Shown one piece after another: positions 5,783-51,158 of a stretch of DNA of 53,577 nt (position 1 is the first letter of the stretch; every line of letters starts with the position of its first letter). The stretch is from a virus, in the IMG/VR virus record IMGVR_UViG_3300033571_023126, positions 1-53,577 of that record; one strand, given 5' to 3'. Under the pieces are notes generated by a model. The model made no database searches and was not told where the DNA came from. It saw nothing but the letters and a program-made list of their open reading frames with translations. Position numbers and translations under genes: made by a program.

Positions 5783-5796
5783 TTGATTTTTTTATA

Positions 5797-5804
5797 TATA
5801 AATA
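5797..5804 (-). promoter_or_regulatory. Putative late promoter, TATTTATA on the minus strand
   Basis: The plus strand reads TATAAATA, so TATTTATA points toward the GTG start at 5782, 14 nt away. The unit contains the neck-like and fibre-like genes. Confidence 0.5.
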
Positions 5805-5808
5805 TCAA

Positions 5809-22549: not shown

Positions 22550-22573
22550 AAAAAAATTAAAAAAAATAAAATT

Positions 22574-22960
22574 ATGGTAGAACTATTAAAAATAGAACAA
22601 AATTCAAATGAATTAATTAGAAAATGGGAAATTATAGGTTTTTTAAATAAAACAAAAAACAAAAGAAATACTGCATTAGCATGTGAGTTATTCCAATTAC
22701 ATTTTTTAGATAACATTGAAACATATAAAGGTGATATTGCTATAATAATACCTGCTGTTATTGTTAGAATATTTAGTAATAATGTAAAAGATTTACCTAT
22801 TCAATTTATTTATAATAATGTGATTGAAATAATTAGAACATTCAAAATTAAATTTGAAGAAATTCAAAATACTGATGTATGGATTAATAATGAATTTACA
22901 GGAGATGTGGAAGCAGAATTTGTTAAAAATTTTTGTGATAATTTTACTTTGACTTTATAA
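22574..22960 (+). CDS. Unknown protein
   Basis: This 128-residue protein is mostly helical, with TKNKRNTALACELFQLHFLD in the first half and a C-terminal acidic part (NNEFTGDVEAEFVKNFCDNF). It follows the resolvase gene by 24 nt in the same direction. No motif or family recognised; its position suggests an early accessory protein. Confidence 0.45.
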   Translation: MVELLKIEQNSNELIRKWEIIGFLNKTKNKRNTALACELFQLHFLDNIETYKGDIAIIIPAVIVRIFSNNVKDLPIQFIYNNVIEIIRTFKIKFEEIQNTDVWINNEFTGDVEAEFVKNFCDNFTLTL

Positions 22961-34887: not shown

Positions 34888-36341
34888 CCAAGATAATCCC
34901 TTGCAGTTAATAAATTAAATTTATCATCAACACCAACAACAAAGAATTTTAAAGTTTCATTATAGGTTTTAACATAATTTCCTGTTTCTAATTTAATATC
35001 CAAATAATAAATCGTTGGTAATAAAAAACTGGTATCTAATTCAAACCAATTATAAGTATAACCCCTATTAACATCTAACCAATTTGTTATAGGTATTTCT
35101 TCTGTACCTTGTTTTAAATATATTCTCCATTTTAATCCATCAATAACTTCATTATTTTTTTCAAAATCTTTTTTTGCAAAAACTGTAATTCTTCTAATAT
35201 CACCCCTTAAAATTGTTTCATCTTTTTTAATACCATTTAATGATATTGAATAATTGGTTGGTAATTTATCATTATTATTTATATAAAAGAATTTTGTATT
35301 TGGTTGTATTGTAAAATACATTTGCACATCAGGTTGTTTTACACCATTATAGTATATATCTTTCCATACATCAATAAAATTAACCTGACATTCTGAATCA
35401 GTATCTAAAACACTAAATTCAACATAATAAACACCTTTGGTTGATTGTTTTATTTGTTGGGATGAAAATGTTCTAAAAACATTACCTTCATTATCATATA
35501 TTTTAACCTGACCTATTTCAATATTTTCATAATTTCCACCAATATTTGCATAAAGATAAAGACGATTTAATTTGTTTTGATAAAATTTGTTTCTATCATC
35601 AAGTACAGTATCATCCCAAACTGTTTCTATATGTGGTTCAAAAAGTGTTTGTGTATATTTTGTGAAAAATCCAACATAATATTTTTCATCAGTAACTAAT
35701 CTTTCATAATCACTTCTAAATGCAATACCAAAACCATAATTTTCGGTTGTTCCAGTAATTAAATCATTTACAATATCTGTAATATCCATTTCAAGATTTT
35801 CATCACCATTATCAAAATGTTGTTCCCTTAATATTGTTGGATTACCACCAACTGCACCAGTTAATGTCCAATTTTGGTTTGTTCCCCTTTCTATGAAATT
35901 TGATGGACCCAATAAAAAAGTTTCATTTGTTTGGAAATTAATTGAATTTCTATTATTATAATCATATCCAACACCTTCATCCCAAGATTCTGGTATTCTA
36001 AAAAGAATTAAATCAAATGATGTTGCTCTAAAATAGTCTTTAAACGGTTTTCCTAAGAGACTTCTATCAAAAGATGATGTATTAGTCATTTTTAGTTTAT
36101 GAGTGATTGTGGTGGAAGATATGATGGTTTTATCCATATATTTTTCCCTTAATTCAGTTACATCAAACTGAAATAAGAATCTGGAAAAATCTGTTGTTCC
36201 ACTAAAACCACTTGTATTACCTGAAAATATAGGAACATCTTTACCGTAATATAATTCTGTTACTTGGTTTTTTGCAGTATTAACCAAACGATTTCTAAGT
36301 ATTGTATTATTCTTTGTAAAATATGTTCTGTAAAATCCCAT
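34884..36341 (-). CDS. Tail-associated structural protein, DNRLRE-like N-terminal half
   Basis: The 485-residue protein is beta-rich throughout. Residues 1-220 resemble DNRLRE/carbohydrate-binding-like jelly rolls: MDKTIISSTTITHKLKMTNT, then LILFRIPESWDEGVGYDYNN, then MDITDIVNDLITGTTENYGF. The C-terminal half has Ig-like strands. Such proteins form baseplate or fibre attachments that bind surface polysaccharide. The start is 9 nt after a late promoter. Its stop overlaps the stop of the recombinase gene. Structural role is likely; the site in the virion is unknown. Confidence 0.5.
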   Translation of the reverse strand: MGFYRTYFTKNNTILRNRLVNTAKNQVTELYYGKDVPIFSGNTSGFSGTTDFSRFLFQFDVTELREKYMDKTIISSTTITHKLKMTNTSSFDRSLLGKPFKDYFRATSFDLILFRIPESWDEGVGYDYNNRNSINFQTNETFLLGPSNFIERGTNQNWTLTGAVGGNPTILREQHFDNGDENLEMDITDIVNDLITGTTENYGFGIAFRSDYERLVTDEKYYVGFFTKYTQTLFEPHIETVWDDTVLDDRNKFYQNKLNRLYLYANIGGNYENIEIGQVKIYDNEGNVFRTFSSQQIKQSTKGVYYVEFSVLDTDSECQVNFIDVWKDIYYNGVKQPDVQMYFTIQPNTKFFYINNNDKLPTNYSISLNGIKKDETILRGDIRRITVFAKKDFEKNNEVIDGLKWRIYLKQGTEEIPITNWLDVNRGYTYNWFELDTSFLLPTIYYLDIKLETGNYVKTYNETLKFFVVGVDDKFNLLTARDYLG

Positions 36342-36350
36342 TTTTTATTT

Positions 36351-36358
36351 AATAAATA
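36351..36358 (-). promoter_or_regulatory. Putative late promoter, TATTTATT on the minus strand
   Basis: The plus strand reads AATAAATA 9 nt upstream of the ATG at 36341. The early promoter for the opposite strand begins 6 nt away. Confidence 0.5.
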
Positions 36359-36363
36359 TTGCA

Positions 36364-36395
36364 TTTGTTTTATTTGGGATTTTTGACTACTTTTG
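36364..36395 (+). promoter_or_regulatory. Early promoter, TTTG-N20-TACTTTTG
   Basis: TTTG (36364-36367), 20 nt, then TACTTTTG (36388-36395), a full match to the Bacteroidota consensus. It lies inside an in-frame upstream extension of the next gene, which shows that the extension from 36359 is not the real start. Confidence 0.6.
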
Positions 36396-36409
36396 GAAAA
36401 AAAACAATT

Positions 36410-36913
36410 ATGAAATTAAAACAAGAAATCTTAGAAAAAAACATTTTGTCATCTGAAATTATTTCTAAAATAGAAGAAAAAGAAAAATGGTGTAAAAAAT
36501 ATAATTATGATTTTGATAATAATCGTTTGATTGAAGTTATTTCTTCTGATAAAGAATCATTTGATAAATTTCACAATTTAGTAAAGGGTGGTGAAATTTC
36601 TTTAGATTTAAAAAATTTATATGATAGTTTAGAAGGACTTGATGAACGTTGTTTAGATTATGGTGTTTGGGATATTTCTGATATAGAATTTTTAGAAATT
36701 GGAAACGAAAATAAAATTTTTGATTTTAAATGTAAACATCCTGAATGGGTTATTGCAGATGGTTATGGTTTAGAATGTAGTGTGATTTTATCAAAAAAAC
36801 CAAATCGCATTGAATATGACGATTTACATGGTTGTTCTTTTGAAGGACATGGTACTTTAGCAGTAATTGATAATTGTCCAAAGAAAATTTTAATTATGGG
36901 TGAAAATGATTAA
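36410..36913 (+). CDS. Unknown early protein
   Basis: ATG 36410 is chosen because the promoter lies between it and the upstream in-frame ATG. The 167-residue protein has a helical start (MKLKQEILEKNILSSEIISK) and a C-terminal domain with DGYGLECSVILSKKPNRIEY and DDLHGCSFEGHGTLAVID. The two-Cys, H/G-rich part could be a small binding fold. It starts a four-gene early run (36410-38619). No family recognised. Confidence 0.45.
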   Translation: MKLKQEILEKNILSSEIISKIEEKEKWCKKYNYDFDNNRLIEVISSDKESFDKFHNLVKGGEISLDLKNLYDSLEGLDERCLDYGVWDISDIEFLEIGNENKIFDFKCKHPEWVIADGYGLECSVILSKKPNRIEYDDLHGCSFEGHGTLAVIDNCPKKILIMGEND

Positions 36914-36916
36914 AAT

Positions 36917-37417
36917 ATGGGTAATTTAAGTTTTATAGTACCAACAAAAAATAAAGAAAATTTTAATATTGAATTTATTAGTAATTTGATTAATTATCAA
37001 TTAAATTTTAATGTTGATAATTACTCGGAATTTGAACAGTTATCAATAACTACTGATTTTTTAGATACTTTTACCATTCTAAAAGGTAGATTAATTAAAG
37101 ATGTTAAAATTTGTGATATTTTCTTTAATCAAGAATGTTATATTTTGAATTTTGAAAAGGATTTAAAATATCTTCAAGAAATGATTAAAGAAAATAAAAA
37201 ATATGAAGAATTTTTTGTTGACTTAAAAAAATTAGAAGAATTAAAACCTAATTTAAAAAATTGTTTGCACATTACTTATGGTCAGGGAATGTTATTTAAA
37301 GAAAGAAACAGAATATTAAATTTATTAAAAAATCATTTTTATGCATATATTTTTGATGAAGGAATTCATCCTGAATTTATGTCACCAAACTTTCAATTTA
37401 AAGAAGAAAATTTATAA
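36917..37417 (+). CDS. Unknown early protein
   Basis: This 166-residue protein is helical with short strands: MGNLSFIVPTKNKENFNIEF, a middle helix DLKYLQEMIKENKKYEEFFV and a C-terminal part with HITYGQGMLFKERNRI. It lies 3 nt after the previous stop and 3 nt before the next start. No motif recognised. Confidence 0.45.
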   Translation: MGNLSFIVPTKNKENFNIEFISNLINYQLNFNVDNYSEFEQLSITTDFLDTFTILKGRLIKDVKICDIFFNQECYILNFEKDLKYLQEMIKENKKYEEFFVDLKKLEELKPNLKNCLHITYGQGMLFKERNRILNLLKNHFYAYIFDEGIHPEFMSPNFQFKEENL

Positions 37418-37420
37418 AAC

Positions 37421-38311
37421 ATGAAACTATATATCCCTGAAATCGGAGATTCAATCAAATTAGAGGAAGATTGGTCTTTTCTTCCAGTCAAAGAAAGTAG
37501 AAATTCTAAATTATTTGAATTTTTTCTACCAAAAGAATTTATTAATAATATGGTCGGAAGGGTAAATAATACTACATATTATTATGAAGGTCAAGGTTAT
37601 AATAGAAGGGGTACAAAAAGAAAAATTAATGAAGATTATGATGAAAGTTTTTTGATTAAAAATTCTGAAAAAGACAGTTTACCAAAAGAATTAAAAAAAC
37701 ATTTTTATTTTAATATATTTTCTAATGAAAATAAAGAAATAATAGGTGATTTTGAGGTAACAATACCAAAAGATTCAATTCTTAAAATTGATAGGGTTTA
37801 CATAAGAAAAGGTGCAAGTGATTATTCTTCTGTTACTTTTTATATTGAACATATTCCTGGAGTAAAATTAAAAGGAAAAGTTAGATTTTTTGCAAATCTT
37901 AGTGATGTTAATAATATTGAAATTTCTGTTAATAGATTAAATTTCTTAAAAATTGGAAAATCAAAATCCTTAACTAAATTAATTGAAAGTTTAAAATATC
38001 ATTCAAATATAGATGATATTAAATACAATATTTTTTTACACTATAATTATAGTGATGGTTCTAAGTTATTTTTAAAAAATATTCCAGTTACTTTTGAAAA
38101 GAAAGAGGTTTTAACTTTAAGTCCTATTGCAAATATTGAAACAATTGTAAAAAAAATAAAATATTTGGATAATGAAAAGGAAATTGATATTGTTAAAGAT
38201 TGGTCAATTGATGTTGTAGAGGATGGTTACACTATTTTTAATTCAAAAAGTGAAAAAGAATTAACTGATTTTATTACTAATTTTGTTATCCAAAAATACA
38301 TTAAAAAATGA
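37421..38311 (+). CDS. Unknown early protein
   Basis: The 296-residue protein is mostly beta with charged loops. It starts MKLYIPEIGDSIKLEEDWSF, has a tyrosine-rich basic loop NTTYYYEGQGYNRRGTKRK, and repeated strand pairs such as GDFEVTIPKDSILKIDRVY. The first line is similar in style to small barrel domains that bind nucleic acid, but no family was recognised. It overlaps the next gene by 4 bases. Confidence 0.4.
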   Translation: MKLYIPEIGDSIKLEEDWSFLPVKESRNSKLFEFFLPKEFINNMVGRVNNTTYYYEGQGYNRRGTKRKINEDYDESFLIKNSEKDSLPKELKKHFYFNIFSNENKEIIGDFEVTIPKDSILKIDRVYIRKGASDYSSVTFYIEHIPGVKLKGKVRFFANLSDVNNIEISVNRLNFLKIGKSKSLTKLIESLKYHSNIDDIKYNIFLHYNYSDGSKLFLKNIPVTFEKKEVLTLSPIANIETIVKKIKYLDNEKEIDIVKDWSIDVVEDGYTIFNSKSEKELTDFITNFVIQKYIKK

Positions 38312-38619
38312 ATTTCCAAGAAAAATTAGAATTGATTCAAAGAATTCATAAAGGTGATACTTTAAAAGATATTGCCTTATTCCATAATATTAATTTTTCT
38401 ATTAAAAAAATAGAAATTGATTATAAAAATAAAAAAATTAGTTTAAAAAACGATAAAGATAATGGTAAGATGTTTAAAACATCACCAAACCTTAGTAAAA
38501 ATCTTTGTAATATTTTTTTTAATAAAACTATAAAAAATATTTATAATGAGGTTAAAGAAAATGATGAAATTGAGTTAATAATGGATGAAGAAACTGAATT
38601 ATTACTTAATTTATTCTAA
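38308..38619 (+). CDS. Small unknown early protein
   Basis: The 103-residue protein begins MNFQEKLELIQRIHKGDTLK, followed by a strand-rich basic part (KKIEIDYKNKKISLKNDKDN) and an acidic C-terminus (MDEETELLLNLF). It overlaps the previous gene by 4 bases. Its 3' end overlaps the converging spike gene by 14 bases. No family recognised. Confidence 0.4.
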   Translation: MNFQEKLELIQRIHKGDTLKDIALFHNINFSIKKIEIDYKNKKISLKNDKDNGKMFKTSPNLSKNLCNIFFNKTIKNIYNEVKENDEIELIMDEETELLLNLF

Positions 38620-39469
38620 TTTTTTGATTACCTAAAATCCTACTTAAATCAAAATTTTTAATTTTTTCTAGTTGACCTGAACCTATATTTGACTCCAATC
38701 TGGAACCTGAATGAATGTGTGTAAGTGCAAATTGTTTAATTAATTCCAAAAATTCCAATAAAACATCACCATAAGGAAGTGGGTGAAGTTTATTAATATC
38801 CAAATCTACCCCATTAAAACTAACTTTTGGGTTTCCTTCGTGGGATATTAAATTTATTGTATCAGAAATAATATTTGTATTAGAAGTTTCACCATCCCAC
38901 TTTAACTCAATTTGAGCAGGATTTTTTCTATTTAATGCGATTAATTTATCAAATTCATCAATAATAATATTATTATCATATTTCCCTGCTCTTATTAAAA
39001 TCGCGTCATTTTGTAATTGTATATCTGTTGAACCCCTACCAATTAATGCAATTGTATTTTTATTTGGATAAACATCATTCATTTCAGGTATTTGTGAAAT
39101 TGGCGTATTTGATGATACATTTTCAAAAGTTTTACCATTAAATGCATTTACAAAATAACTTTGATAATCTACATTTTGTAATTGTGTTATAACTGGTCCT
39201 ATCCATTCCCTATTTCTTGTATCTTCACTATTTAAGAAAACTTTTACAGTTTCCCCAACTTTAGGTAAAATATTGAGATGTCTTGGTAGTAGTGGTGTTG
39301 CAAATGGTAATTCTGATAAAGGTGTTGTAATTTTATCTATATCAGGTATTCTACACTTTATTCTAAAAGATTCAGTAGGGTCATTATTATCAACCACTTC
39401 TGCATAATAAATAAAAGTTTTATTTTCTTTTATTTTTGAATTAATATTATTAAAAGAAAAATTACTCAT
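38606..39469 (-). CDS. Baseplate spike/hub protein with gp5-like OB fold
   Basis: The 287-residue protein has an N-terminal OB-type domain. FIYYAEVVDNNDPTESFRIK and CRIPDIDK are followed by LPFATPLLPRHLNILPKVGE and TVKVFLNSEDTRNREWIGPV. This is the pattern of T4 gp5 / VgrG-like OB folds, where P-x-x-G-E-x-V-x-V precedes the final strands. A region with polar beta repeats follows, ending in a helix ELIKQFALTHIHSGSR. It should sit at the tip of the tail tube. Its start overlaps the small gene upstream by 8 bases. Confidence 0.6.
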   Translation of the reverse strand: MSNFSFNNINSKIKENKTFIYYAEVVDNNDPTESFRIKCRIPDIDKITTPLSELPFATPLLPRHLNILPKVGETVKVFLNSEDTRNREWIGPVITQLQNVDYQSYFVNAFNGKTFENVSSNTPISQIPEMNDVYPNKNTIALIGRGSTDIQLQNDAILIRAGKYDNNIIIDEFDKLIALNRKNPAQIELKWDGETSNTNIISDTINLISHEGNPKVSFNGVDLDINKLHPLPYGDVLLEFLELIKQFALTHIHSGSRLESNIGSGQLEKIKNFDLSRILGNQKIRIN

Positions 39470-39665
39470 TTATTTTTTCCTCCACCTTTGTTTCTGATTT
39501 AAAACCAGTTCTTTTATTTAATTCTTCATATAATTCAATATATTCTTTTTCTTTTTCTTCCAACAAAATCATATCATTATAAATTTTAACTTTTAAATCC
39601 TCATGTTCTTTAAAAAGTTTACCCATTTTTTCAACCAATTCCTTATTTGTTAATAAAATATCCAT
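39462..39665 (-). CDS. Small coiled-coil late protein
   Basis: The 67-residue protein is a single charged helix (LVEKMGKLFKEHEDLKVKIY, then LLEEKEKEYIELYEELNKR). It is the first gene of the late unit with the spike protein, overlapping it by 8 bases. It could be a chaperone or small structural part of the spike. The late promoter is 4 nt before its ATG. Confidence 0.5.
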   Translation of the reverse strand: MDILLTNKELVEKMGKLFKEHEDLKVKIYNDMILLEEKEKEYIELYEELNKRTGFKSETKVEEKINE

Positions 39666-39669
39666 ATAA

Positions 39670-39677
39670 AATAAATA
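39670..39677 (-). promoter_or_regulatory. Putative late promoter, TATTTATT on the minus strand
   Basis: The plus strand reads AATAAATA 4 nt upstream of the ATG at 39665, back to back with the early promoter at 39684. Confidence 0.45.
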
Positions 39678-39683
39678 TTTGCA

Positions 39684-39714
39684 TTGACTTTTTATTGTTT
39701 TTTTATTATATTTG
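39684..39714 (+). promoter_or_regulatory. Early promoter, TTG-N20-TATATTTG
   Basis: TTG (39684-39686), exactly 20 nt, then TATATTTG (39707-39714). ATG 39719 comes 4 nt later, so the mRNA should be leaderless or nearly so. It lies inside the in-frame upstream extension of the LeuRS gene and so fixes its start. Confidence 0.6.
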
Positions 39715-39718
39715 TATT

Positions 39719-40945
39719 ATGAAAAATTTATTTATTACAGTTATGTTCCCTTATCCATCAGGTAGTGGATTACATTGTGGACATTGGTATAACTACTCAA
39801 TTGTAGATTCTTATTGTAAAATACAAAGATTTAAAGGATATAATGTTTTTCAACCATTTGGATTTGATTCTTTTGGACTTCCAGCAGAAAATTATGCAAA
39901 AAAAATTGGTAGAAATCCTAAAGAAGTAACTTATGAGAATATAGAAAATTTCCGCAAGGAAATGGTTAGAATGAATACTTCTTTTGAAGAGAAATTAATT
40001 ACATCTGAATCTTATTATATTGAAAAAACACAATGGTTATTTAAAGAACTTTATAAACATGGACTTGCTTATAAAAAAATGGGTTTAGTTAATTGGGACC
40101 CAATTGATAAAACAGTTCTTGCAAATGAACAAATTATAGAAGGAAGGGGTGAAAGAAGTGGTGCAATAATAGAACAAAAAGAAATGGAACAATGGTATTT
40201 TAAAATTACAGATTATAGAGAAAGACTTATTAAAGATTTAGAAAAAGTTGACTACCCTGAAAAGACTAAAAAACAACAACTTTATTGGTTAAGAGAAGAT
40301 AATTTTAGAGATTGGTGTGTATCAAGGCAAAGAAGTTGGGGTTGCCCAATACCAATGGAAGGTGAAAGTGATACTTTAGATACATTTGTTGATTCTTCTT
40401 TTTATACAATAATGTATGATAAAACTAAACCAGTTGATATATATGTAGGTGGAAATGAACATGCTTGTGCTCATCTTATTTACTCAAGATTTATAACTAA
40501 ATTTTTATATGATATTGGTTATATTGACTTTGATGAACCTTTTAAGAAGGTAGTACATCAAGGTATGATTCTTGGTGAAGATGGTAATAAAATGAGTAAA
40601 AGACTTAATAATGTTGTAGATTTAAATAAATATGAACCACAACTTCTTAGAATGTATTTGATGTTTATTAATCATTATTTTGAAGGTGGTAAATGGCAGG
40701 ATTCAGGTTATAAGGGTTGTGAACGTTTTAAAAATAGATTATTTAATTGGTTTAATAATTCTACTGAAAACGGTGAAGTAATAGATTTAAAAGAATTTAA
40801 AGATATAGTAATCAGTTATTTTGATTCTTGGAAAGTAAATAAAGTGGTATCAACATGGATGGAATTTTTTAATAAAAATAAGGGTAAAATAATTAATATA
40901 AAAACAAAACAAGAATTAGAAGAATTTTTTAATGTTTGTTTTTAA
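39719..40945 (+). CDS. Miniature leucyl-tRNA synthetase lacking the editing domain
   Basis: ATG 39719 gives 408 residues, against about 860 for bacterial LeuRS. The class I catalytic core is present: PYPSGSGLHCGHW with the HIGH-type motif HCGH at 19-22, FDSFGLPAENYAKKIG, NWDPIDKTVLANEQ, DWCVSRQRSWGCPIP, TLDTFVDSSFYTIM, and KMSKR at 291-295. In ordinary LeuRS the CP1 editing domain follows the W-P-E-K-V segment; here DYPEKTKKQQLYWLREDNFR joins it almost directly to DWCVSRQR, so the editing domain is cleanly absent. The anticodon-binding part is reduced to about 80 residues and the C-terminal domain is missing. It may charge a phage or host tRNA without proofreading, or have a non-translational role. 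Confidence 0.85.
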   Translation: MKNLFITVMFPYPSGSGLHCGHWYNYSIVDSYCKIQRFKGYNVFQPFGFDSFGLPAENYAKKIGRNPKEVTYENIENFRKEMVRMNTSFEEKLITSESYYIEKTQWLFKELYKHGLAYKKMGLVNWDPIDKTVLANEQIIEGRGERSGAIIEQKEMEQWYFKITDYRERLIKDLEKVDYPEKTKKQQLYWLREDNFRDWCVSRQRSWGCPIPMEGESDTLDTFVDSSFYTIMYDKTKPVDIYVGGNEHACAHLIYSRFITKFLYDIGYIDFDEPFKKVVHQGMILGEDGNKMSKRLNNVVDLNKYEPQLLRMYLMFINHYFEGGKWQDSGYKGCERFKNRLFNWFNNSTENGEVIDLKEFKDIVISYFDSWKVNKVVSTWMEFFNKNKGKIINIKTKQELEEFFNVCF

Positions 40946-40947
40946 TA

Positions 40948-42735
40948 TCATTGAGTAATTGCATAACCCTCACCCAAAGAAATGGTTGTACCAACCACTT
41001 GTACTGGTCCTAATGGTGAAGTTCCTGTTGCAGTAACCTGAACACCAGGTTGTATAACAACTGTTATTTTCATATCCTCAAGTATTCCCTTAATAATTTC
41101 TTCTACTCTAATAGTTTCCATCACTTCATCAGGTGAAATTGTACCATCAGGTAATGCACCACTTGGTATTCCTGCTTCATTTTGACGTTCAATAATTCTT
41201 GATGTAATTTTTGTTGCAGATAAACCAGGTTTTCTTGCAGATGCAAGTATTAATGGTGAAGGTATTTGTGGTGCTGGGGTATCTGGTACTTCTAACTTAT
41301 TTAATAAAGTTCTTATCAGTAATATTATAGCAGAAACTTCATTATCTGGTAATTCAGGTATGTTATCAGTAATATTATTTATAATATTATTTATATTATT
41401 TAATCCAACTAATGAACTATAAACCAATTTTTGATTTCTTACCTTTTCCTTTGTTTTTTCTGCAATAATTCTACTTACTAATTTTCTTATGAGTTTTAGT
41501 ATAATTGGATATAATATATTAATTATGGTTTTAAGTATAGATTTAGTTAGACTATAAAATACTTTTTTATTACTTTTTATAAAGTCAATTAAATTGTAGT
41601 CTTGATATGTATTTGTTATCTTTGCTCCTGTTATAAATAAAAAATTTATTTTTGGTGTTATTAAAAATGATATTAATAATTTTGGTAAACCTTTTATAAA
41701 TTCAACAATAAACCAATTTTTTGATGTTTGTTTATTAATTTGTGAAATATTATCATTTTCTGTAACCACTTCATTTATATTAAGTATTATTTGATTTTTA
41801 ATTTCATTGTATTTTGGTGAATTTTTAATTAATAAAAAAGATTGTGTAATAGATGATGTTGGTAAATTTAATTCATTAATATCACAAAATACTTGATTTG
41901 CAAAACCAGATAAAAGTTGATTAGTTTTAGTATTGTTAAGTAAAGTTTCTTCTTCGGTAAATTCAAAAAAAGAATTATCAATTTCAATTAATTCACCAGA
42001 ATTCAATAATTTATCAATAATTGTATTAACTTGTTCATCATAATTAATTTTATTTGAAGATAAAGATAGTTCATTTTTTATATTACCAAATATTTCATCC
42101 ATAAATTTAGAATATATATTTTCTTTTGGAAAAATATTAATTGAATTTATAAATTTTGTATAAAATTCATTAACAGTAGAAACATTTTTTACTTTAAATT
42201 CAAATTCTTCACTATTTTGCAAATAAGTAATTTCTAAAAAATCACCCCATGTAGATGTTGTTCCTGGAATTTGCAATACATTATCATAAAGAAATTTATT
42301 AAAATTATTGTCATAGTAAAAATTACCTAATTGTGTATTTGGATTAATTTTAAGTAATTCTGTCAAATCAAGTGATGTTATTTTAATTCTCCACCCTTGT
42401 GTCATAAAAAGTGGTAAACCATTTCCAGTCCAATTACATAAAAAATTTTCTTTTAATTCAAAAAATATAATTTCTTTAACCTTATTTTCAATGTTTGTTA
42501 ATTCCAATAAAATCTTATCAAACACTTCTTCTATTTTTTGATAACCATCTAAAGATTTCAACATATCCAAAAGAAAGGGTATTATATCCTCACCAATATC
42601 TTTTATTGAAGAAAATTGTTGTATAATTTTGGAAATACCTTTAATTGTTTTTTCTTTATTTGCAATAATTTGGGATATTGCTCTATTTGTTTCAATTTGG
42701 GTGAAAATCTTGGTTTTATTATCTATAAATGACAT
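40948..42735 (-). CDS. Large late structural protein
   Basis: The 595-residue protein is unknown. Residues 1-90 are helical (KEKTIKGISKIIQQFSSIKD), the middle is mixed, residues about 350-440 have several hydrophobic helices (IVEFIKGLPKLLISFLITPK, then ILKTIINILYPIILKLIRKL), and the C-terminus is beta and Gly/Thr-rich (VVIQPGVQVTATGTSPLGPV). The hydrophobic stretch could contact a membrane during ejection. A late promoter lies 12 nt upstream; the 3' end is 2 nt from the converging LeuRS stop. Virion protein is inferred from class and size. Confidence 0.45.
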   Translation of the reverse strand: MSFIDNKTKIFTQIETNRAISQIIANKEKTIKGISKIIQQFSSIKDIGEDIIPFLLDMLKSLDGYQKIEEVFDKILLELTNIENKVKEIIFFELKENFLCNWTGNGLPLFMTQGWRIKITSLDLTELLKINPNTQLGNFYYDNNFNKFLYDNVLQIPGTTSTWGDFLEITYLQNSEEFEFKVKNVSTVNEFYTKFINSINIFPKENIYSKFMDEIFGNIKNELSLSSNKINYDEQVNTIIDKLLNSGELIEIDNSFFEFTEEETLLNNTKTNQLLSGFANQVFCDINELNLPTSSITQSFLLIKNSPKYNEIKNQIILNINEVVTENDNISQINKQTSKNWFIVEFIKGLPKLLISFLITPKINFLFITGAKITNTYQDYNLIDFIKSNKKVFYSLTKSILKTIINILYPIILKLIRKLVSRIIAEKTKEKVRNQKLVYSSLVGLNNINNIINNITDNIPELPDNEVSAIILLIRTLLNKLEVPDTPAPQIPSPLILASARKPGLSATKITSRIIERQNEAGIPSGALPDGTISPDEVMETIRVEEIIKGILEDMKITVVIQPGVQVTATGTSPLGPVQVVGTTISLGEGYAITQ

Positions 42736-42747
42736 TAGTTTTTTAAT

Positions 42748-42755
42748 TATAAATA
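42748..42755 (-). promoter_or_regulatory. Putative late promoter, TATTTATA on the minus strand
   Basis: The plus strand reads TATAAATA 12 nt upstream of the ATG at 42735. An early-type TTG-N21-TAGATTTA (42762-42793) faces the other way. Confidence 0.5.
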
Positions 42756-42837
42756 TTGAATTTGACTTTTTAATTTTTTTTTGTTTAGATTTAATTTATG
42801 GTTTTTGGAACAATCTTAAATTCTTTTATAAAAAAAT

Positions 42838-43032
42838 ATGTTTAAAATAACATTAAATAATCATTGGAAAAATGTTCTTCTTGAATTACCAGAAACAGGA
42901 ATGGGTTTCCAAAAAGTTCTTGTTACATTAAAAAATGGTGAAATTATTAGGGGTGTTGTATTAAATGTAACAGAATTAAAAACAAATGAATTAGTTGATT
43001 TAAATAACATAATAAAAATTGAATTAGAATGA
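42838..43032 (+). CDS. Small conserved protein of unknown role
   Basis: The 64-residue protein is MFKITLNNHWKNVLLELPET followed by GMGFQKVLVTLKNGEIIRGV and a short acidic end. The P-E-T-G-M-G-x-Q-K-V and L-K-N-G-x-x-x-x-x-V-V elements suggest a small beta barrel, and similar short proteins occur in Bacteroidota and their phages. It overlaps the next gene by 4 bases. Function unknown. Confidence 0.5.
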   Translation: MFKITLNNHWKNVLLELPETGMGFQKVLVTLKNGEIIRGVVLNVTELKTNELVDLNNIIKIELE

Positions 43033-43544
43033 AAAAAGTATTTTGGTTTCACGGTTTAGGTGGAACACACGAAGAAGAAGTTAGGGAAATTTTAAAAAAT
43101 TATAAAGTTGATTTCTTTAACCCATCAATGGATTATGAGTTAAATAGAAATAACCCTAAATTTATTAAATATATAATGGAAATCGCAAAAGATTATGATT
43201 ATATAATTGGTAATTCAATGGGTGGGTTTTGGGCATTTCATGTTGGTACATTATTGGGTAAAAAAACAATTCTTTTTAATCCTGCAATATCTGAAATAAC
43301 CCTTTCCTATAAATGGTTTTATAAAGATTTTTTTAAGGTAAATAAGGAATTAACTAAAGAATTAAAAGAAAAAACTGATGTTACTTTGTTTATATCAACT
43401 GATGATACTGTTGTTAATTATGACAAAACATTTGAGTGGTTGAATAATATGGGTTATAAATATAACTTTGAATGGTTAAAAAACGAAACCCACTCTTTAG
43501 ATTTTAATTTAATTTTTAAAAAAATATTTACATGTATATATTAA
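43029..43544 (+). CDS. Alpha/beta hydrolase, YqiA-like esterase
   Basis: The 171-residue protein has an alpha/beta hydrolase core. VFWFHGLGGTHEEEV carries the oxyanion-hole HG, YIIGNSMGGFWAFHV the nucleophile elbow G-N-S-M-G-G, LFISTDDTVV the acid Asp, and NETHSLDF the His. The small size matches YqiA/UPF0227-type esterases. A phage esterase might modify a lipid or surface polymer, or be a moonlighting metabolic gene. It overlaps both neighbours, by 4 and 13 bases. Confidence 0.7.
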   Translation: MKKVFWFHGLGGTHEEEVREILKNYKVDFFNPSMDYELNRNNPKFIKYIMEIAKDYDYIIGNSMGGFWAFHVGTLLGKKTILFNPAISEITLSYKWFYKDFFKVNKELTKELKEKTDVTLFISTDDTVVNYDKTFEWLNNMGYKYNFEWLKNETHSLDFNLIFKKIFTCIY

Positions 43545-44437
43545 CAATACAAGAATCATTTAAAAATTTAATTCCTAAGTCAGAAACTAAAATAGGTTTT
43601 GAAATAAATAAATTATTTAAACCTAACACTTTAGAAGATATTTTTAATTACGGTCATTTGGTTGTTGAACAGGATAATTCTTATGATTATTTAGGTTTTG
43701 AAAATGGTAATTTTATTTATTGTCAACACAGTAGATTAAAAAATGGTGGATTTGAAAAAAATAAAATATTTACACCAAACATTCAAGGAGTTTTACAACA
43801 CATAATTAATTCATCTGAACACAAAGGAAGATTTAAAGAAAAGGATTTTTTTAATTTTAACAATAAACTTTTAGCAAAAATGGGAGATAATTTAACATTA
43901 CACTTTCCTTCTAACAAAGAAGAAATACTTGAGGCATTTAATTATACAAATAATGTAAATACAATTGCGATTAATTCTTGTGCCAATTTTAACTTAAAAA
44001 ATTCAGGTTGGGAAAAACCTGATGTGAGTTGGTATGAATTTTATTATAATAATTTGGATAAAATTCAATTGGTTGTTGTAAAAGATGAAAAAGGGGTTAT
44101 TCAAGGAAGAAGTTATTTTTTTCATGGTAATCAAGAAATTGATACAAAAGTATATGGAAAAAAAGAAATAAAAAAAGGAACTTATTTTAAATTTTTTAAT
44201 TCTGTTTATGGTTTACCAGTTGCACAAGCAAAAATAAGAGAATTTTTCAAATCAGAAGGTATTGTTCAAAGTAGTGAAGGATGTTTTGTATTAAAAATTA
44301 ATTTTTGTAAAAAATTCCCACCTGTTGATAGTTTAGTTGTTGATGAAGAAAAAGGTTATATTTGTACTATGAATCCTTATAATAATAATAACTACTTACC
44401 TTCAGCATATAAATACATTAGCAAAATTAAAAAATAA
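43532..44437 (+). CDS. SCM/R-x-LLW family member 2 (diverged)
   Basis: This 301-residue protein of unknown function has AINSCANFNLKNSGWEKPD near residue 150, followed about 30 residues later by LVVVKDEKGVIQGRSYFF. The order and spacing match the family seen at 8430-9272 and 45342-46322, with Ala in place of Met and a changed LLW. The N-terminus (MYILTIQESFKNLIPKS) is short and helical. It overlaps the hydrolase gene by 13 bases. Cys, Arg and the W/F pocket may mark a binding site. Confidence 0.5.
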   Translation: MYILTIQESFKNLIPKSETKIGFEINKLFKPNTLEDIFNYGHLVVEQDNSYDYLGFENGNFIYCQHSRLKNGGFEKNKIFTPNIQGVLQHIINSSEHKGRFKEKDFFNFNNKLLAKMGDNLTLHFPSNKEEILEAFNYTNNVNTIAINSCANFNLKNSGWEKPDVSWYEFYYNNLDKIQLVVVKDEKGVIQGRSYFFHGNQEIDTKVYGKKEIKKGTYFKFFNSVYGLPVAQAKIREFFKSEGIVQSSEGCFVLKINFCKKFPPVDSLVVDEEKGYICTMNPYNNNNYLPSAYKYISKIKK

Positions 44438-44468
44438 TTGATTATCCAATTTTTTTTCTTTAAATTTT
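44438..44468 (+). promoter_or_regulatory. Early promoter, TTG-N20-TAAATTTT
   Basis: TTG (44438-44440), immediately after the preceding stop codon, 20 nt, then TAAATTTT (44461-44468). It drives the short gene at 44485 and ClpP. The -7 element lacks the final G. Confidence 0.45.
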
Positions 44469-44484
44469 TAAAAAAACAAACAAT

Positions 44485-44655
44485 ATGAATCAAAACACAC
44501 AAAGAGATATTAATCTTGCATTAGAACAAAATAGGGGTGTAATTTGTATCCAAATAGCAGTAAGGGTAATATCACCTCATGGAGATGATTTTGTTTATGA
44601 AACAAATCCATGTATAGCAAATTCTTTAATAGAAATGGGTTGGAATAAAATTTAA
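44485..44655 (+). CDS. Small unknown protein, 56 residues
   Basis: The ORF encodes MNQNTQRDINLALEQNRGVI, then CIQIAVRVISPHGDDFVYET and a C-terminal ANSLIEMGWNKI. It is preceded by the 19-base leader AAAAAACAAACAATATGAA (44471-44489), repeated before ClpP at 44664-44682, which supports translation of both. It is the first gene after an early promoter. No family recognised. Confidence 0.55.
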   Translation: MNQNTQRDINLALEQNRGVICIQIAVRVISPHGDDFVYETNPCIANSLIEMGWNKI

Positions 44656-44677
44656 TAAAATAAAAAAAACAAACAAT

Positions 44678-45337
44678 ATGAACTTTACAAATGAATTCAC
44701 AAAATTCTCAAAAGACTTGGGATTGAATGAAAAAGAAATTAATTCAGAAATTTCAATGATGACACCACACATTGTTGAAGAAAGAGAAAAAAGATTTGCA
44801 ATCATGTCTGTTTTTGACAGATTAATGATGGATAGAACAATTTTCTTTGGAGGTCCTGTAACAGATACAGCAGCAAATGTAATAATTGCTCAATTATTAT
44901 TTCTTGAAAATTTAGACCATAAAAAAGATATAATAATGTATATTAATTCTCCTGGTGGTTCTGTTCAAGCAGGATTGGCAATATATGATACAATGAATTG
45001 GATTTCACCAGATGTACAAACAATTAATGTTGGTATGTCTGCATCAATGGGTGCAGTTTTATTATCATCAGGACAAAAAGGTAAAAGATTCTCTTTAAAA
45101 CACAGTAGAACAATGATACACCAACCTTTAGGTGGAACTCAGGGAAAGGCAACTGATATGGAAATCCAAATGGAAGAAATGAAAAAGTTACGTAAAGAAC
45201 TTTATGATATTTTATCTATTAATACAGGTAAATCTTATGAACAAATCGCAGAAGATTGTAATAACGGTGATAAGTGGTTTACAGGTCAAGAGGCAGTAGA
45301 ATACGGTTTAGTTGATGGATTAATCCTTAAAAAATAA
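44678..45337 (+). CDS. clpP: ClpP protease subunit
   Basis: The 219-residue protein is a full-length ClpP serine peptidase. The catalytic triad is visible: S123 in GMSASMGA (119-126), H148 in MIHQPLGG, and D213 in YGLVDGLI. MYINSPGGSVQAGLAIYDTM is the conserved oxyanion-side loop. The N-terminus is 20 residues longer than the mature bacterial form and may be removed. Fourteen subunits would form a chamber fed by a Clp ATPase; a ClpC-like ATPase is encoded at 51159. Translation is aided by a duplicated A-rich leader. Confidence 0.95.
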   Translation: MNFTNEFTKFSKDLGLNEKEINSEISMMTPHIVEEREKRFAIMSVFDRLMMDRTIFFGGPVTDTAANVIIAQLLFLENLDHKKDIIMYINSPGGSVQAGLAIYDTMNWISPDVQTINVGMSASMGAVLLSSGQKGKRFSLKHSRTMIHQPLGGTQGKATDMEIQMEEMKKLRKELYDILSINTGKSYEQIAEDCNNGDKWFTGQEAVEYGLVDGLILKK

Positions 45338-45341
45338 GTTA

Positions 45342-46322
45342 ATGTCATTATTTGTACAATTTACTGATTTTATTTTCCCATTTTCTTTTAAAAAACTTTC
45401 TTTTAAAAAAGAAGTTAAAGAAACCTTTGAAAAAATTAATTTAAATTTAGATTTATATAATCTTTTAAATAATTTTTCTTTCAAAGGTGTTTTTAAAGAT
45501 TCTCAAATAGAATTGGGTTTAAATAATAAAACTTCATTGTGTGATAAAACACTTAAATATTTGACATTTTTATCTGTTACAAATAACTGTCAAGTAAGTA
45601 AAAAAATTGTTAATGATTATTATTTAAATAAATTAAATTTAGGTGTTTTTAAATATATCAAAATTGAAGATAATGAAATCTTTGGTAGTCATAGTGACAA
45701 ATCAAAATGGAATAAAATAAAAATATCTAAATTATGTAGTTTTGTTAAGGATGATGTTTTAATACAGAATTTTATTACGAATTTCAAAAACCTTTTAAAT
45801 ATATCTAAGATTAATTATGATATTAAGGTTGTTTCAGGTGAAGAAATAACCTTTTGGTATTCAGAAAAAAATTATCATAAAGACAATTTTTTCTATGATG
45901 GTCCCAAAACAGTTTTAGGTAAATCTTGCATGAGAAATTCAAAACAAGGTTATTCACCAAAATTGTATGAACATAATCATGAAAAAGTTAATATGTTAAT
46001 TGTAACTGAAAATGGTAAATTAAAAGGTCGAGCATTACTTTGGAGATTAGATAACGGTCAAATTTTTATGGATAGATGTTATTATTTAAATGAGGAAATC
46101 GAAAAATTAATGTATTTGATTGGTTTTTTAAATGGTTTTATTGTAAAACTTCATTACATAAACAGATATTGGAATGGTACAAGAATTGTTGAATATTTGA
46201 AATTAAAAACAACAATCAATAACCTTAATAATATAAAATATCCTTATTTAGACACTTTTAATCGAGATGATTTATTTAATCAAGTGGCACACAAAAAATC
46301 TAAAATTTTATTAACTAATTAA
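45342..46322 (+). CDS. SCM/R-x-LLW family member 3
   Basis: This 326-residue protein has GKSCMRNSKQGYSPKLYEHN near residues 200-219 and then a strand pair LIVTENGKLKGRALLWRL ending DRCYY. The same order occurs at 8430-9272 and 43532-44437. The N-terminal 190 residues have no recognised domain. The motif order (S-C-M, K/E-x-G-x-x-x-x-R-A-L-L-W, M-D-R-x-Y) is, to my knowledge, common in phage proteins of unknown function. It starts 4 nt after ClpP, so it is co-transcribed. Confidence 0.55.
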   Translation: MSLFVQFTDFIFPFSFKKLSFKKEVKETFEKINLNLDLYNLLNNFSFKGVFKDSQIELGLNNKTSLCDKTLKYLTFLSVTNNCQVSKKIVNDYYLNKLNLGVFKYIKIEDNEIFGSHSDKSKWNKIKISKLCSFVKDDVLIQNFITNFKNLLNISKINYDIKVVSGEEITFWYSEKNYHKDNFFYDGPKTVLGKSCMRNSKQGYSPKLYEHNHEKVNMLIVTENGKLKGRALLWRLDNGQIFMDRCYYLNEEIEKLMYLIGFLNGFIVKLHYINRYWNGTRIVEYLKLKTTINNLNNIKYPYLDTFNRDDLFNQVAHKKSKILLTN

Positions 46323-46332
46323 AATAAACTAT

Positions 46333-46659
46333 ATGAAAGAAAAATTAATTCAACTATTCCACAATTTTTTACCAAAAACAAGTATCCACAATTTAAGAAT
46401 AAATGAAAATAATTTTTCATTTACTTTTATTTACGAAGAAAATAATGATGTAAAAAGTTTTGAACTTTTCGTTGAGTATAATCATGACCTAAGAAAACAT
46501 TTCATAAGTTTTTATTATCCTTACATAGATGTTTGGACACAAAAAAACTTGCAATCCATTAATAGTATTGAATTATCACCAAAGGAATATGAAAATTTAA
46601 AAAATATGTTTGTTGACCATTTTAATAACCAAATAAATAATTTTTTACCAAAAATTTAA
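46333..46659 (+). CDS. Small unknown protein
   Basis: The 108-residue protein has an alpha/beta layout: MKEKLIQLFHNFLPKTSIHN, strands FSFTFIYEENNDVKSFELFV, and a C-terminal helix YENLKNMFVDHFNNQINNFL. It follows the previous gene by 10 nt. No motif or family was recognised. Confidence 0.45.
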   Translation: MKEKLIQLFHNFLPKTSIHNLRINENNFSFTFIYEENNDVKSFELFVEYNHDLRKHFISFYYPYIDVWTQKNLQSINSIELSPKEYENLKNMFVDHFNNQINNFLPKI

Positions 46660-46665
46660 AATATT

Positions 46666-47427
46666 ATGATTTTTAAAGATAAAAGATATATATCGTTCCC
46701 AAGAGAAAATAATGAAGATGTTTTATTTAAAACATTCAATTTGGGGGATTTAGGGTTTAATGATTATGATTATATTGTTGTTAATGCAACAATTAATAAT
46801 GAAAATAAATTATCCATAACATTAAATGAAAATTCCAAAAAGGCAATAAAATTAATGGATATTCCAGAAGAGAATGTTAAACTTCTTTTGAAATCCATTA
46901 GAACCCATTTGAACGAACATAACATGATTATTTTTGAGGAAATTCAAAGACAACAACCAGTTAATTTAATGTATGGTGGTGGGGTTGCAGAACGTTTAAG
47001 AAGAAACATACTTGAAGATTATAATATTGATAATATTGATTTAAATCAATATCAAAATATTTTAATTAATAATATTGTAAGTATTGAAGAAGGTTTTGAA
47101 TTTAGAAATATCTTTATTGATAACTTAAATAGGTTGGATGATGAAAATGAAGTTCAATCAAAGATTAAAAAATCTATTGTTTGGATGTTGCATGAACAAG
47201 TAAACATAGGAACTGTAAGAAACTTCAATGAAGAAAGAACTTTTTATTCTGTGAAGGGTGACAGAATAGTTAATTTAAATACTGTTGAAATGATTGAAAA
47301 TTTGGGTATAGACCCTAATTTTGGAATTTATTCTGATATTCTTGTAGAAGTTTATGGTACAGTTGAATTACCGTTTAATAATCAAATAAACCATGTAATT
47401 TTATTTGAAGATAATTCGATTTGGTAA
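46666..47427 (+). CDS. Unknown protein
   Basis: The 253-residue protein starts MIFKDKRYISFPRENNEDVL. It has beta segments in the first 70 residues, a helix (NVKLLLKSIRTHLNEHNMII), a middle with NLMYGGGVAERLRRNILEDY, and a C-terminal beta part. The Gly-rich YGGGVAERLRR could be a phosphate-binding turn but is not a standard Walker motif. It lies 6 nt after its neighbour. No family recognised. Confidence 0.4.
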   Translation: MIFKDKRYISFPRENNEDVLFKTFNLGDLGFNDYDYIVVNATINNENKLSITLNENSKKAIKLMDIPEENVKLLLKSIRTHLNEHNMIIFEEIQRQQPVNLMYGGGVAERLRRNILEDYNIDNIDLNQYQNILINNIVSIEEGFEFRNIFIDNLNRLDDENEVQSKIKKSIVWMLHEQVNIGTVRNFNEERTFYSVKGDRIVNLNTVEMIENLGIDPNFGIYSDILVEVYGTVELPFNNQINHVILFEDNSIW

Positions 47428-47489
47428 TATTATTTATGATTAAATTTACTTTTAAATAAAATCCATTATCTTTCTAAGAAAATTTTAAT

Positions 47490-48299
47490 ATGTTTTCTTG
47501 GATTGGAGGTAAAAGTAGAATAGGTAAATGGATTAAAGAATATATACCAAACGATATTAATTCTTATTGTGAACCTTTTGGTGGTGCATTTTGGGTATAT
47601 TTTAATTTAACTACCGAACAATTGAATAATTTAAATGAAGTTGTTTATAATGATATTAATCCATTAAATGCAAATTTGTTTTTATGTATAAAACATCACG
47701 AAGAATTTTATAATCATATTAAAGACATTCCTGCACAAGAAAAGGAAAGATTTGATTTTTATCAGAAAAATTGTTTTAATAGTGATTTTAAATATAATCC
47801 CGAAAAACCTGATTTTGAAATTGGATTAAATTATATATATGTTGTTACACAAGTTTTTTCTGGTACTAAACCTGAAACAAGTAAATTTGTTGATTTAAAA
47901 GGTAAATATAAATCAAAATTTTTAACTTTTAAAGAAAGACTAATAAAACCTGAATGGGTTAATAAAATTGATAAAATAACAAATATTGAATGTTTAGATT
48001 TTGAAGAAGTAATAAAAAAATATCCTGAATCATATTTTTATATAGATGCACCATATTTTAAATTGGAAGATTATTATTCAAATCAATCTTTTAATTATGA
48101 TGACCATCTAAGATTGGGTAAGGTTTTGGATTCATTAAATAATAAAGTTTCTGTATCTTACTATGATTTTGAAGGTATTAACAATATATATAACCCTGAT
48201 AAATGGATTTATTTAAATAAAGAGTTTGTTAAACCAAGTATGGCAAGACAAAATCTAAAACAAACAAAATCAATAGAACTATTGATAAAAAATTATTAA
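47490..48299 (+). CDS. D12-class DNA adenine methyltransferase with DAPY
   Basis: The 269-residue protein starts MFSWIGGKSRIGKWIKEYIP and continues with SYCEPFGGAFWVYFNL (SAM-binding) and NDINPLNANLF. The catalytic motif is DAPY (186-189) in SYFYIDAPYFKLEDYY, where most Dam enzymes have DPPY; the Ala change may lower or alter activity. The C-terminus (SVSYYDFEGINNIYNPDKWI) fits the family. It is full length compared with the shorter enzyme at 16243. Early expression suggests it acts on replicating DNA. It joins the next gene with no gap. Confidence 0.8.
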   Translation: MFSWIGGKSRIGKWIKEYIPNDINSYCEPFGGAFWVYFNLTTEQLNNLNEVVYNDINPLNANLFLCIKHHEEFYNHIKDIPAQEKERFDFYQKNCFNSDFKYNPEKPDFEIGLNYIYVVTQVFSGTKPETSKFVDLKGKYKSKFLTFKERLIKPEWVNKIDKITNIECLDFEEVIKKYPESYFYIDAPYFKLEDYYSNQSFNYDDHLRLGKVLDSLNNKVSVSYYDFEGINNIYNPDKWIYLNKEFVKPSMARQNLKQTKSIELLIKNY

Positions 48300-48611
48300 A
48301 TGGATTTTTTTCCTATATTAATAGTATTACTTATTTTTGCATTTGCATACGGAATTTCTTTTTTAGAAACATCTGATGAATCTTTTACAAAATTTTTATC
48401 CACAAAAGATTCTTACATAGAACCAAAAAATCTACCAAAACAAACCCAAAAAAAATTAATAGAAGAATATTATTATTGGTTGATAAATTCTGAATATATT
48501 AATTTTAATGATTACAATAAATTTTTTCCTTATATAAAAGAAAATTTTAATCCACAAACCGAAAAACAATGGATAAGTATTTTGCATTTAATAAAAAAAG
48601 AACTTACTTGA
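48300..48611 (+). CDS. Small membrane-anchored protein
   Basis: The 103-residue protein has an N-terminal membrane helix (MDFFPILIVLLIFAFAYGIS) with little charge before it, then a soluble charged domain (QTQKKLIEEYYYWLINSEYI, and a final helix with W). It would face either side of the inner membrane. It starts at the base after the methylase stop (TAAATG). Phage proteins of this layout often modify host envelope or block superinfection, but no family was recognised. Confidence 0.5.
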   Translation: MDFFPILIVLLIFAFAYGISFLETSDESFTKFLSTKDSYIEPKNLPKQTQKKLIEEYYYWLINSEYINFNDYNKFFPYIKENFNPQTEKQWISILHLIKKELT

Positions 48612-48654
48612 TTTATTAAAAATATTTTGTTAAATTTTAAAAAATAACTATAAA

Positions 48655-49077
48655 ATGAAGGGAAAGGAATACGAACTCGAAAATAATTTCTTTAGAGTTA
48701 AGTGGGGATTTACGACTATAAATAATCCTGAAAGTTTTTACATCACCATTTGCGGGTGGGGTTTACCAATTTATGAAGATATTTTAGAAAGTAGAAAAAA
48801 AATAAGATTCTTTGAGGGTGAACTAAAAAAAAGAATTTATAAACGTATTGAAAAAGACAGTAATTTTAATAAGAATTTTATCTTAAATTTTGAATTTCCT
48901 GAATCAGGTTTAAAAAAAGATAAAAAAACTTATTTTTCTTTGGAATTGGTTTTTTATGTTAAAAATAAGAAACACATAAAAGATAAATTTTGGGTGGAAA
49001 CAACTCAAAAAATAAGTAGAATATTAGAAAAATATTTTTCATCATCTAAAGATTTTTTATTTTATAAATTTAAATAA
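48655..49077 (+). CDS. Unknown protein
   Basis: The 140-residue protein is beta-rich and basic: NFFRVKWGFTTINNPESFYI, then TICGWGLPIYEDILESRKKI, a middle helix, then strands NKNFILNFEFPESGLKK and FSLELVFYVKNKKHIKDKFW. It follows the membrane gene by 43 nt. No motif recognised. Confidence 0.4.
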   Translation: MKGKEYELENNFFRVKWGFTTINNPESFYITICGWGLPIYEDILESRKKIRFFEGELKKRIYKRIEKDSNFNKNFILNFEFPESGLKKDKKTYFSLELVFYVKNKKHIKDKFWVETTQKISRILEKYFSSSKDFLFYKFK

Positions 49078-49078
49078 T

Positions 49079-49309
49079 ATGAGAGATTTAACTTACGAGG
49101 AAAATAAAATAGATAAAAAGGGAATATGTTTTTTTATTAAACAAGAAAAATATAAAACTGAAAAAATTAAAGTTGAAGATATTACATATAATGAATCTCA
49201 AACCAAATTAAAAGAAGATGGATTTATAATTATGAAATTCTTTCCTTATGGTACTGTAATAAATCATTTTGGTAATAAATTAAAAATATCACCAGGTTGT
49301 TTTGATTAA
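49079..49309 (+). CDS. Small unknown protein
   Basis: The 76-residue protein is basic and beta-like (MRDLTYEENKIDKKGICFFI, then KFFPYGTVINHFGNKLKISP, ending GCFD). It starts 1 nt after the previous stop. Its promoter-proximal position before 49317 makes it the last gene of the ClpP-led run. No family recognised. Confidence 0.4.
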   Translation: MRDLTYEENKIDKKGICFFIKQEKYKTEKIKVEDITYNESQTKLKEDGFIIMKFFPYGTVINHFGNKLKISPGCFD

Positions 49310-49316
49310 TTTGCAG

Positions 49317-49347
49317 TTGTTTTATTTGGATTTTTTATTTACTTTTG
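49317..49347 (+). promoter_or_regulatory. Early promoter, TTG-N20-TACTTTTG
   Basis: TTG (49317-49319), exactly 20 nt, TACTTTTG (49340-49347), and ATG 49352 after 4 nt. This is a full consensus match with the same promoter-to-start distance as the LeuRS gene, which again predicts a leaderless mRNA. Confidence 0.6.
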
Positions 49348-49351
49348 TAGT

Positions 49352-51115: not shown

Positions 51116-51146
51116 ATTTGCATTTTAAAAAATTGAAAAAAATCAT

Positions 51147-51154
51147 TAAATTTA
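51147..51154 (+). promoter_or_regulatory. Possible early -7 element, TAAATTTA
   Basis: TAAATTTA ends 4 nt before the ATG at 51159, the same distance as in the promoters at 24211, 39684 and 49317. No TTG lies at exactly 20 nt, so the match is partial. Confidence 0.35.
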
Positions 51155-51158
51155 CATT

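Follow-up and report, generated by a model that had tools for sequence, protein, structure and literature searches.

The window, a 53,577-bp stretch of viral DNA (IMG/VR record IMGVR_UViG_3300033571_023126, positions 1–53,577), encodes at 39719–40945 (+) a leucyl-tRNA synthetase (LeuRS) of 408 aa that lacks both the CP1 editing domain and the C-terminal domain. It belongs to a phage family of such small enzymes (mini-LeuRS) that is real, conserved and under selection. Based on sequence comparison, we consider it probable that the mini-LeuRS is a proofreading-free synthetase that charges phage or host tRNA-Leu and works in translation.

The open reading frame begins with an ATG and is intact over its 408 codons. 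The HCGH, LPAEN, DWCVSRQRSWG and KMSKR motifs, which a preliminary description of this DNA had listed, are all kept. The HxGH motif (HCGH, residues 19–22, 39773–39784 (+)) and the KMSKS-type loop (KMSKR here, residues 291–295, 40589–40603 (+)) carry H19, G21 and H22 and K291 and K294, respectively, which are invariant in all 43 phage proteins compared. The leucine pocket residues Y12, D50, F223, H248 and H252 are likewise invariant in 43/43, and M9, F10 and Y242 nearly so. We take D50, F223, H248 and H252 to be Asp80, Phe493, His533 and His537 in E. coli numbering. A loss of catalytic residues in relatives, which the preliminary description had considered, was not seen.

The top curated model for the window protein is the bacterial LeuRS TIGR00396 (347.9 bits, E 1.2e-103), and the next-best family scores 128.3 bits. 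The protein falls short of the cut-off for full-length members of TIGR00396 (equivalog, 548.4 bits). By its closest sequence and fold family it is classed as a LeuRS and not as an IleRS, ValRS or MetRS, and membership in a known non-synthetase family, also considered earlier, finds no match in this result.

The absence of the editing domain, claimed from the sequence at the outset, holds up. PF13603 (LeuRS editing domain) was not listed for the window protein by Pfam at E up to 1 and was found in 0/43 phage proteins, the window protein included, at E up to 0.01; the full-length bacterial LeuRS L254, used as control, scored 224.6 bits. All 43 scanned proteins match PF00133, and none matches PF08264 (Anticodon_1). 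CP1 has a median length of 205 residues (164–371) in those 61 of the best 80 of 541 bacterial LeuRS in which it was measurable, that is, where both boundary patterns were found. In the window protein only a few residues take its place, the junction being WLREDNFRDWCV (residues 190–201, 40286–40321 (+)) with WLENLHDWCV as the relatives' consensus. The anticodon-binding helices (residues ∼302–408, 40622–40942 (+), according to structure alignment and Pfam) are shortened, not lost, and still align structurally to the LeuRS of Thermus thermophilus. By its predicted structure, the protein retains the catalytic domain and some of the helical anticodon-binding domain, and has lost both CP1 and the C-terminal domain.

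An AlphaFold2 model of the window protein, made from an 11-row alignment, reached pLDDT 84 and pTM 0.81. A comparison of a predicted structure with LeuRS had been suggested in the preliminary description, and it agrees with the assignment. Foldseek against the PDB ranked the LeuRS of Mycoplasma mobile (PDB 3ziu) first (TMq 0.90), with only LeuRS at ranks 1–44. VIA-align superimposed residues 1–408 of the model on residues 29–783 of T. thermophilus LeuRS (Z 34.0, rmsd 2.2, 407 residues aligned). The latter chain has 878 residues and the window protein stops at the equivalent of 783, in line with the earlier statement that the anticodon and C-terminal parts are reduced. Such likeness of fold speaks for the architecture and is no test of function.

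Scans of viral contigs returned 14, 47, 2 and 28 loci, in sets that overlap one another. The spacing between GLPAE and DWCVSR is 143–147 residues in 41 of the 47 phage sequences measured (40 distinct), 157 in three (a 735-kb phage and two relatives) and 268 in one (L165), with fragments making up the last two. Between the KMSK motif and the C-terminus lie 116–134 residues in 40/41 minis and 183 in L147. The gene is carried, among others, by contigs 343,421 to 607,744 bp long and by LR745206 (634,780 bp). The 735-kb phage encodes a second type of CP1-less LeuRS, of 508 residues, which clears the TIGR00396 cut-off with 557.9 bits. By a crude count, two or more CxxC pairs are kept in 42/47 phage sequences; they are missing from the window protein, L125 and L156, and the remaining two are fragments.

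Across 11 pairs of mini-LeuRS genes dN/dS was 0.043–0.237, by simple Nei-Gojobori counts in which the distant pairs are close to saturation. The window is 99.99% identical over 53,577 bp to a 173-kb contig, and since the same spacing also recurs in 41 sequences, the frameshift or assembly error that the preliminary description had allowed for is very unlikely.

We found no mini-LeuRS in bacterial genomes among the best 80 of 541 matches. An ORF of more than 500 aa was present in 79 of these 80 (the ORF picked for L273, in the bacterial set, is a 405-residue piece), and 72 of them have both motifs, 384–584 residues apart compared with 163–167 in the phage minis. No description of a CP1-less phage LeuRS was found in the open-access texts searched. 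In the parts of their text available to us, Al-Shayeb et al. (2020; PMC7162821) describe complete phages of 634 and 735 kb, genomes that encode at most 15 synthetases and at most 67 tRNAs, and Bacteroidetes as the predicted hosts of the largest genomes. Two of the records analyzed here match the 634- and 735-kb sizes; the words leucyl and LeuRS are absent from the main text, and missing editing domains are not mentioned in the parts available to us (PMC7162821).

A tree of the quick type was calculated from 417 core columns for phage LeuRS and 22 bacterial LeuRS (2 of the 24 chosen bacterial rows were skipped, as no ORF fitted the patterns); it holds no mycoplasma sequence and leaves out the fragments L166 and L168 and the near-copy L157. 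This phylogeny, another check named in the preliminary description, places the 40 minis and L165 in one clade (SH-aLRT 100), separate from the 22 bacterial LeuRS. The group of three formed by the 735-kb phage's LeuRS sits among the bacterial enzymes, away from the mini clade. CP1 was therefore likely lost at two origins, once in the mini clade and once in the type of the 735-kb phage; we grade this only as likely because a tree that forces the latter group together with the minis survives the AU test (p 0.124).

L165 (IMGVR_UViG_3300006103_000007, locus 5001–6584) is a CP1-bearing relative, with a trimmed CP1 of 120 residues that matches PF13603 with 82.2 bits. It groups with the window protein, L124 and L126 (SH-aLRT 100 for the set of four, 97 inside it), and its placement as an outgroup that had kept CP1 was rejected (AU p 0.0255). 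Either L165 regained CP1, or CP1 was lost repeatedly at one junction. We infer that regain takes fewer steps, and the CP1 of L165 was apparently regained. No tRNA match was found in its 148-kb record.

ARAGORN found tRNA-Leu genes flanking many, not all, of the mini-LeuRS genes. Within 3 kb of the LeuRS gene there are at least 29 tRNA-Leu genes in 12 records (104–735 kb), against a mean of 8.84 when the labels were rotated along the tRNA order of each record, and 0/20,000 rotations were as high as 29. The 3-kb radius was set after the neighborhoods had been seen, the 12 come from related genomes, and tRNAs were listed for the fetched stretches. Among the matches listed, the tRNA nearest to the LeuRS gene is a tRNA-Leu in 8/12 records, 8 of the 10 tRNAs in one 343-kb record are for Leu, and five of the 12 (W01, G014, G015, G016 and G021) have no tRNA-Leu within 3 kb. 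In the 735-kb phage, five tRNA-Leu genes (UAG, UAA, CAA, GAG and UAG) precede the LeuRS gene on its strand at a distance of 0.8 kb.

In the mini-LeuRS records, A73 is present in 107/109 Leu tRNAs (69/69 with a long and 38/40 with a short variable arm). The 40 short variable regions (39 of ≤6 bases and one of 7–9) compare with 0/35 for Ser and 1/15 for Tyr tRNAs in the same records. We considered short arms as a sign of co-evolution with the stripped enzyme and rejected this, because control phages show short arms too: in six phages with no PF00133 match, 3/11 Leu tRNAs are short, all of them from KVP40 (Fisher p 0.74). All three Leu-anticodon tRNAs at 173–181.5 kb in this Vibrio phage (AY283928) are short-armed.

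Several other tRNA-like sequences were seen. A 122-base match in G002 (29.6 bits) resembles tRNA-Leu, but no proper anticodon arm could be placed and it was left uncounted. Those in G012 (22489–22593 (-)), G007 (476–573 (-)) and G006 (20264–20323 (-)) have, by eye and RNAfold, good acceptor and T arms, but also an extra hairpin within the D loop and an anticodon arm that is either oversized or irregular. LR756501.1 carries at 690585–690738 (+) two tRNAs with CUA anticodons (Pyl according to ARAGORN) that are possibly amber suppressors; 11 of 673 distinct tRNAs were called Pyl.

The window corresponds to bases 17–53593 of the 173-kb contig (G001), which has a GC content of 24%, shows no terminal repeats and is probably incomplete. 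A phage tRNA-Leu elsewhere in the genome, as the preliminary description had proposed to look for, was not found by ARAGORN in these 173 kb; the only tRNA called is a Lys tRNA, and no tRNA lies within 5 kb of the window's LeuRS gene. A 57-base tRNA-like match (161274–161330 (+), 35 bits) is without an anticodon arm. UUA makes up 65% of the Leu codons in 152 ORFs of this contig.

Only 10 of 205 ORFs (≥90 aa) of the 173-kb contig match the 180-kb contig G012, LeuRS among them; this may mean that the gene travels between dissimilar genomes or that the two contigs represent different parts of larger ones. In a tblastn comparison (E up to 1e-6) with 72 kb of G002 and the neighborhood stretches of G003 and L125, LeuRS is the sole ORF of the 173-kb contig that has a match. 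The gene next to LeuRS on its upstream side, in the opposite orientation, has a product similar to a baseplate hub protein (E 1.3e-5), and the window also encodes an SNF2-type helicase at 6702–8441 (+) (phrog_62, E 1.5e-102). A search with an exact 26-base repeat led back to the 173-kb contig and to just one other, of 82 kb, which is identical over the three stretches compared and gave no tRNA match. A near-DNA search of window positions 36000–53577 against annotated phages gave no match.

The preliminary description had also given the gene a strong early promoter of its own and concluded that it is used. A sigma-70-like sequence (TTGACT-17-TATATT, a 10-of-12 match, 39684–39712 (+)) does end 6 bases before the ATG, but it is not above chance: the region has 9 sites of this kind, whereas shuffled sequence gives 13.3 (sd 3.6). 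A comparable site lies within 60 bases of 2/190 contig ORFs, and by eye none is seen in the 60-base upstream stretches of seven relatives. We do not retain this claim.

We infer activity, substrate and misincorporation as follows. The enzyme would consist of the catalytic domain and a short helical tRNA-binding tail, and would activate leucine with ATP and load it onto the 3' terminus of tRNA-Leu, using the phage's own tRNA-Leu where one is encoded and that of the host elsewhere. It would recognize A73 and the tRNA body, not the anticodon or the variable arm. The supply of Leu-tRNA to phage mRNAs would then not depend on the host enzyme, the cost being that Leu codons would now and then be read as norvaline, isoleucine or valine.

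In E. coli, A73 is the chief identity base of tRNA-Leu, not the anticodon or the long variable arm; the anticodon arm is required for editing but dispensable for charging, and human mitochondrial tRNA-Leu, which has no long arm, is still charged (PMC9976931, parts of the text). Charging of tRNA-Leu is also described for an engineered LeuRS urzyme that has neither CP1 nor an anticodon domain (PMC9026127, parts of the text). Taken together, these identity rules, the mitochondrial tRNA and the urzyme make A73-based charging by the mini-LeuRS plausible. Deletion of the editing domain of human LeuRS abolishes activity (PMC9976931, same parts), which counts against our preferred reading, as do the missing CxxC pairs of the window protein, the five records that have no tRNA-Leu within 3 kb and the lack of a tRNA match in the L165 record.

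Given the clusters of tRNA-Leu genes at the LeuRS genes of relatives, a role in translation has the best support; the argument rests on these relatives since the window's phage has neither a tRNA-Leu in 173 kb nor any tRNA within 5 kb of the gene. The preliminary description had offered a proofreading-free enzyme that lets phage translation tolerate mischarging. Its first half fits the selection and the intact catalytic residues, and its second half, taken as a role in phage translation, is supported for the family and may hold for the window's own phage. Its other proposal, a paralogue that charges a non-tRNA acceptor, gains no pointer from neighborhood or residues. A LeuRS-derived protein outside translation, either making leucyl-adenylate or passing leucine to such an acceptor, would be in keeping with the missing C-terminal domain and with the lack of a tRNA-Leu in the 173-kb contig, and synthetase paralogues with other jobs do exist: LeuRS-I makes leucyl-adenylate and does not charge tRNA (PMC9437257, parts of the text). 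We nevertheless think it unlikely, as tRNA-Leu genes cluster with the relatives' LeuRS, the catalytic and pocket residues are those of LeuRS and invariant, and no partner gene is shared in the 72 kb of G002 or the G003 and L125 stretches. Even less probable is a decoy or regulator that binds tRNA without charging it, for which the reduced size and the tRNA-Leu binding of the non-charging LeuRS-I might be cited (PMC9437257, same parts); a decoy would not need the catalytic residues that are invariant in 43/43. A decaying gene or assembly artefact, to which the shortened protein and the loss of CxxC pairs from the window copy might point, is highly improbable given 41 phage sequences with the same spacing, dN/dS well below 1 and the presence of the same gene on two contigs.

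A complement to charging in translation, rather than an opponent of it, is that the host LeuRS edits mischarged Leu-tRNAs in trans, which would make the loss of CP1 cheap. PF13603 was above the cut-off in one of 18 carrier records, several of them fragments, and there it lies inside L165's own LeuRS; two weaker matches fall in the long PF00133 frames of W01 (an IleRS) and G015. The PF02580 deacylase was found in 0/18. With an editing domain above the cut-off in only one record, charging errors would either stand or be cleaned by the host enzyme in trans, and bacterial LeuRS do carry CP1, judged by the motif spacing in 72 of the best 80 of 541. Against this, one relative, L165, has an editing domain of its own, and cis editing may thus be worthwhile at times. 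We regard trans editing as a possibility on the doubtful side.

Proofreading by LeuRS is normally held necessary for fidelity, with mycoplasmas and a microsporidian with a deletion in the editing domain as natural exceptions. The deletion in this eukaryote is described in the available part of PMC7373986. Natural editing-free LeuRS are thus already known, and no description of them in huge phages was found in the open-access texts searched. As a tentative idea, huge phages might possess an error-tolerant set for charging Leu, in which a stripped LeuRS has arisen at least twice, tRNA-Leu genes form arrays, and editing is dispensable and, as in L165, regainable. Leu decoding would then lie outside host quality control, and such phages may tolerate or even exploit norvaline or isoleucine. 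The family offers a natural CP1-less LeuRS, probable tRNA partners and a close relative with a trimmed editing domain, and makes two questions accessible with ordinary proteins: how small a portion of LeuRS suffices for the charging of tRNA-Leu, and what level of mistranslation a phage can bear.

Short class Ia synthetases without CP1 are not confined to leucine in these phages. ValRS-like proteins without CP1 are encoded in LR745206.1 (34378–35709 (-), 443 codons, valine type according to NCBIfam), in G021 (98674–99696 (-), open frame 499) and in G015 (396731–397831 (+), open frame 516), the last two assigned by PF00133 and by eye. They resemble the mini-LeuRS in this respect, but are of the valine type and form a separate family. 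The IleRS of the 634-kb phage (382047–384254) has kept CP1.

Compared with full-length bacterial LeuRS of the TIGR00396 type, such as that of T. thermophilus (1obc/1h3n), the window protein shares the motifs and the pocket, but has neither the CP1 nor the C-terminal domain found there. The naturally CP1-less LeuRS of the M. mobile type has the same LeuRS core without CP1. M. mobile LeuRS, which we take to be the textbook CP1-less LeuRS, is bacterial-type like the window protein, and their alignment crosses the CP1 site without an insert; it is, however, a cellular enzyme with a chain of 637 residues compared with 408. LeuRS-I has a disrupted CP1 and a divergent acidic C-terminal domain and binds tRNA without charging it (PMC9437257, same parts). 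In the window protein CP1 is missing, and there is no C-terminal domain whatsoever. The LeuAC urzyme, a LeuRS core that lacks CP1 as the mini-LeuRS does, activates leucine and charges tRNA-Leu, but it is an engineered fragment of an archaeal LeuRS (PMC9026127, same parts), while the mini-LeuRS is a natural gene.
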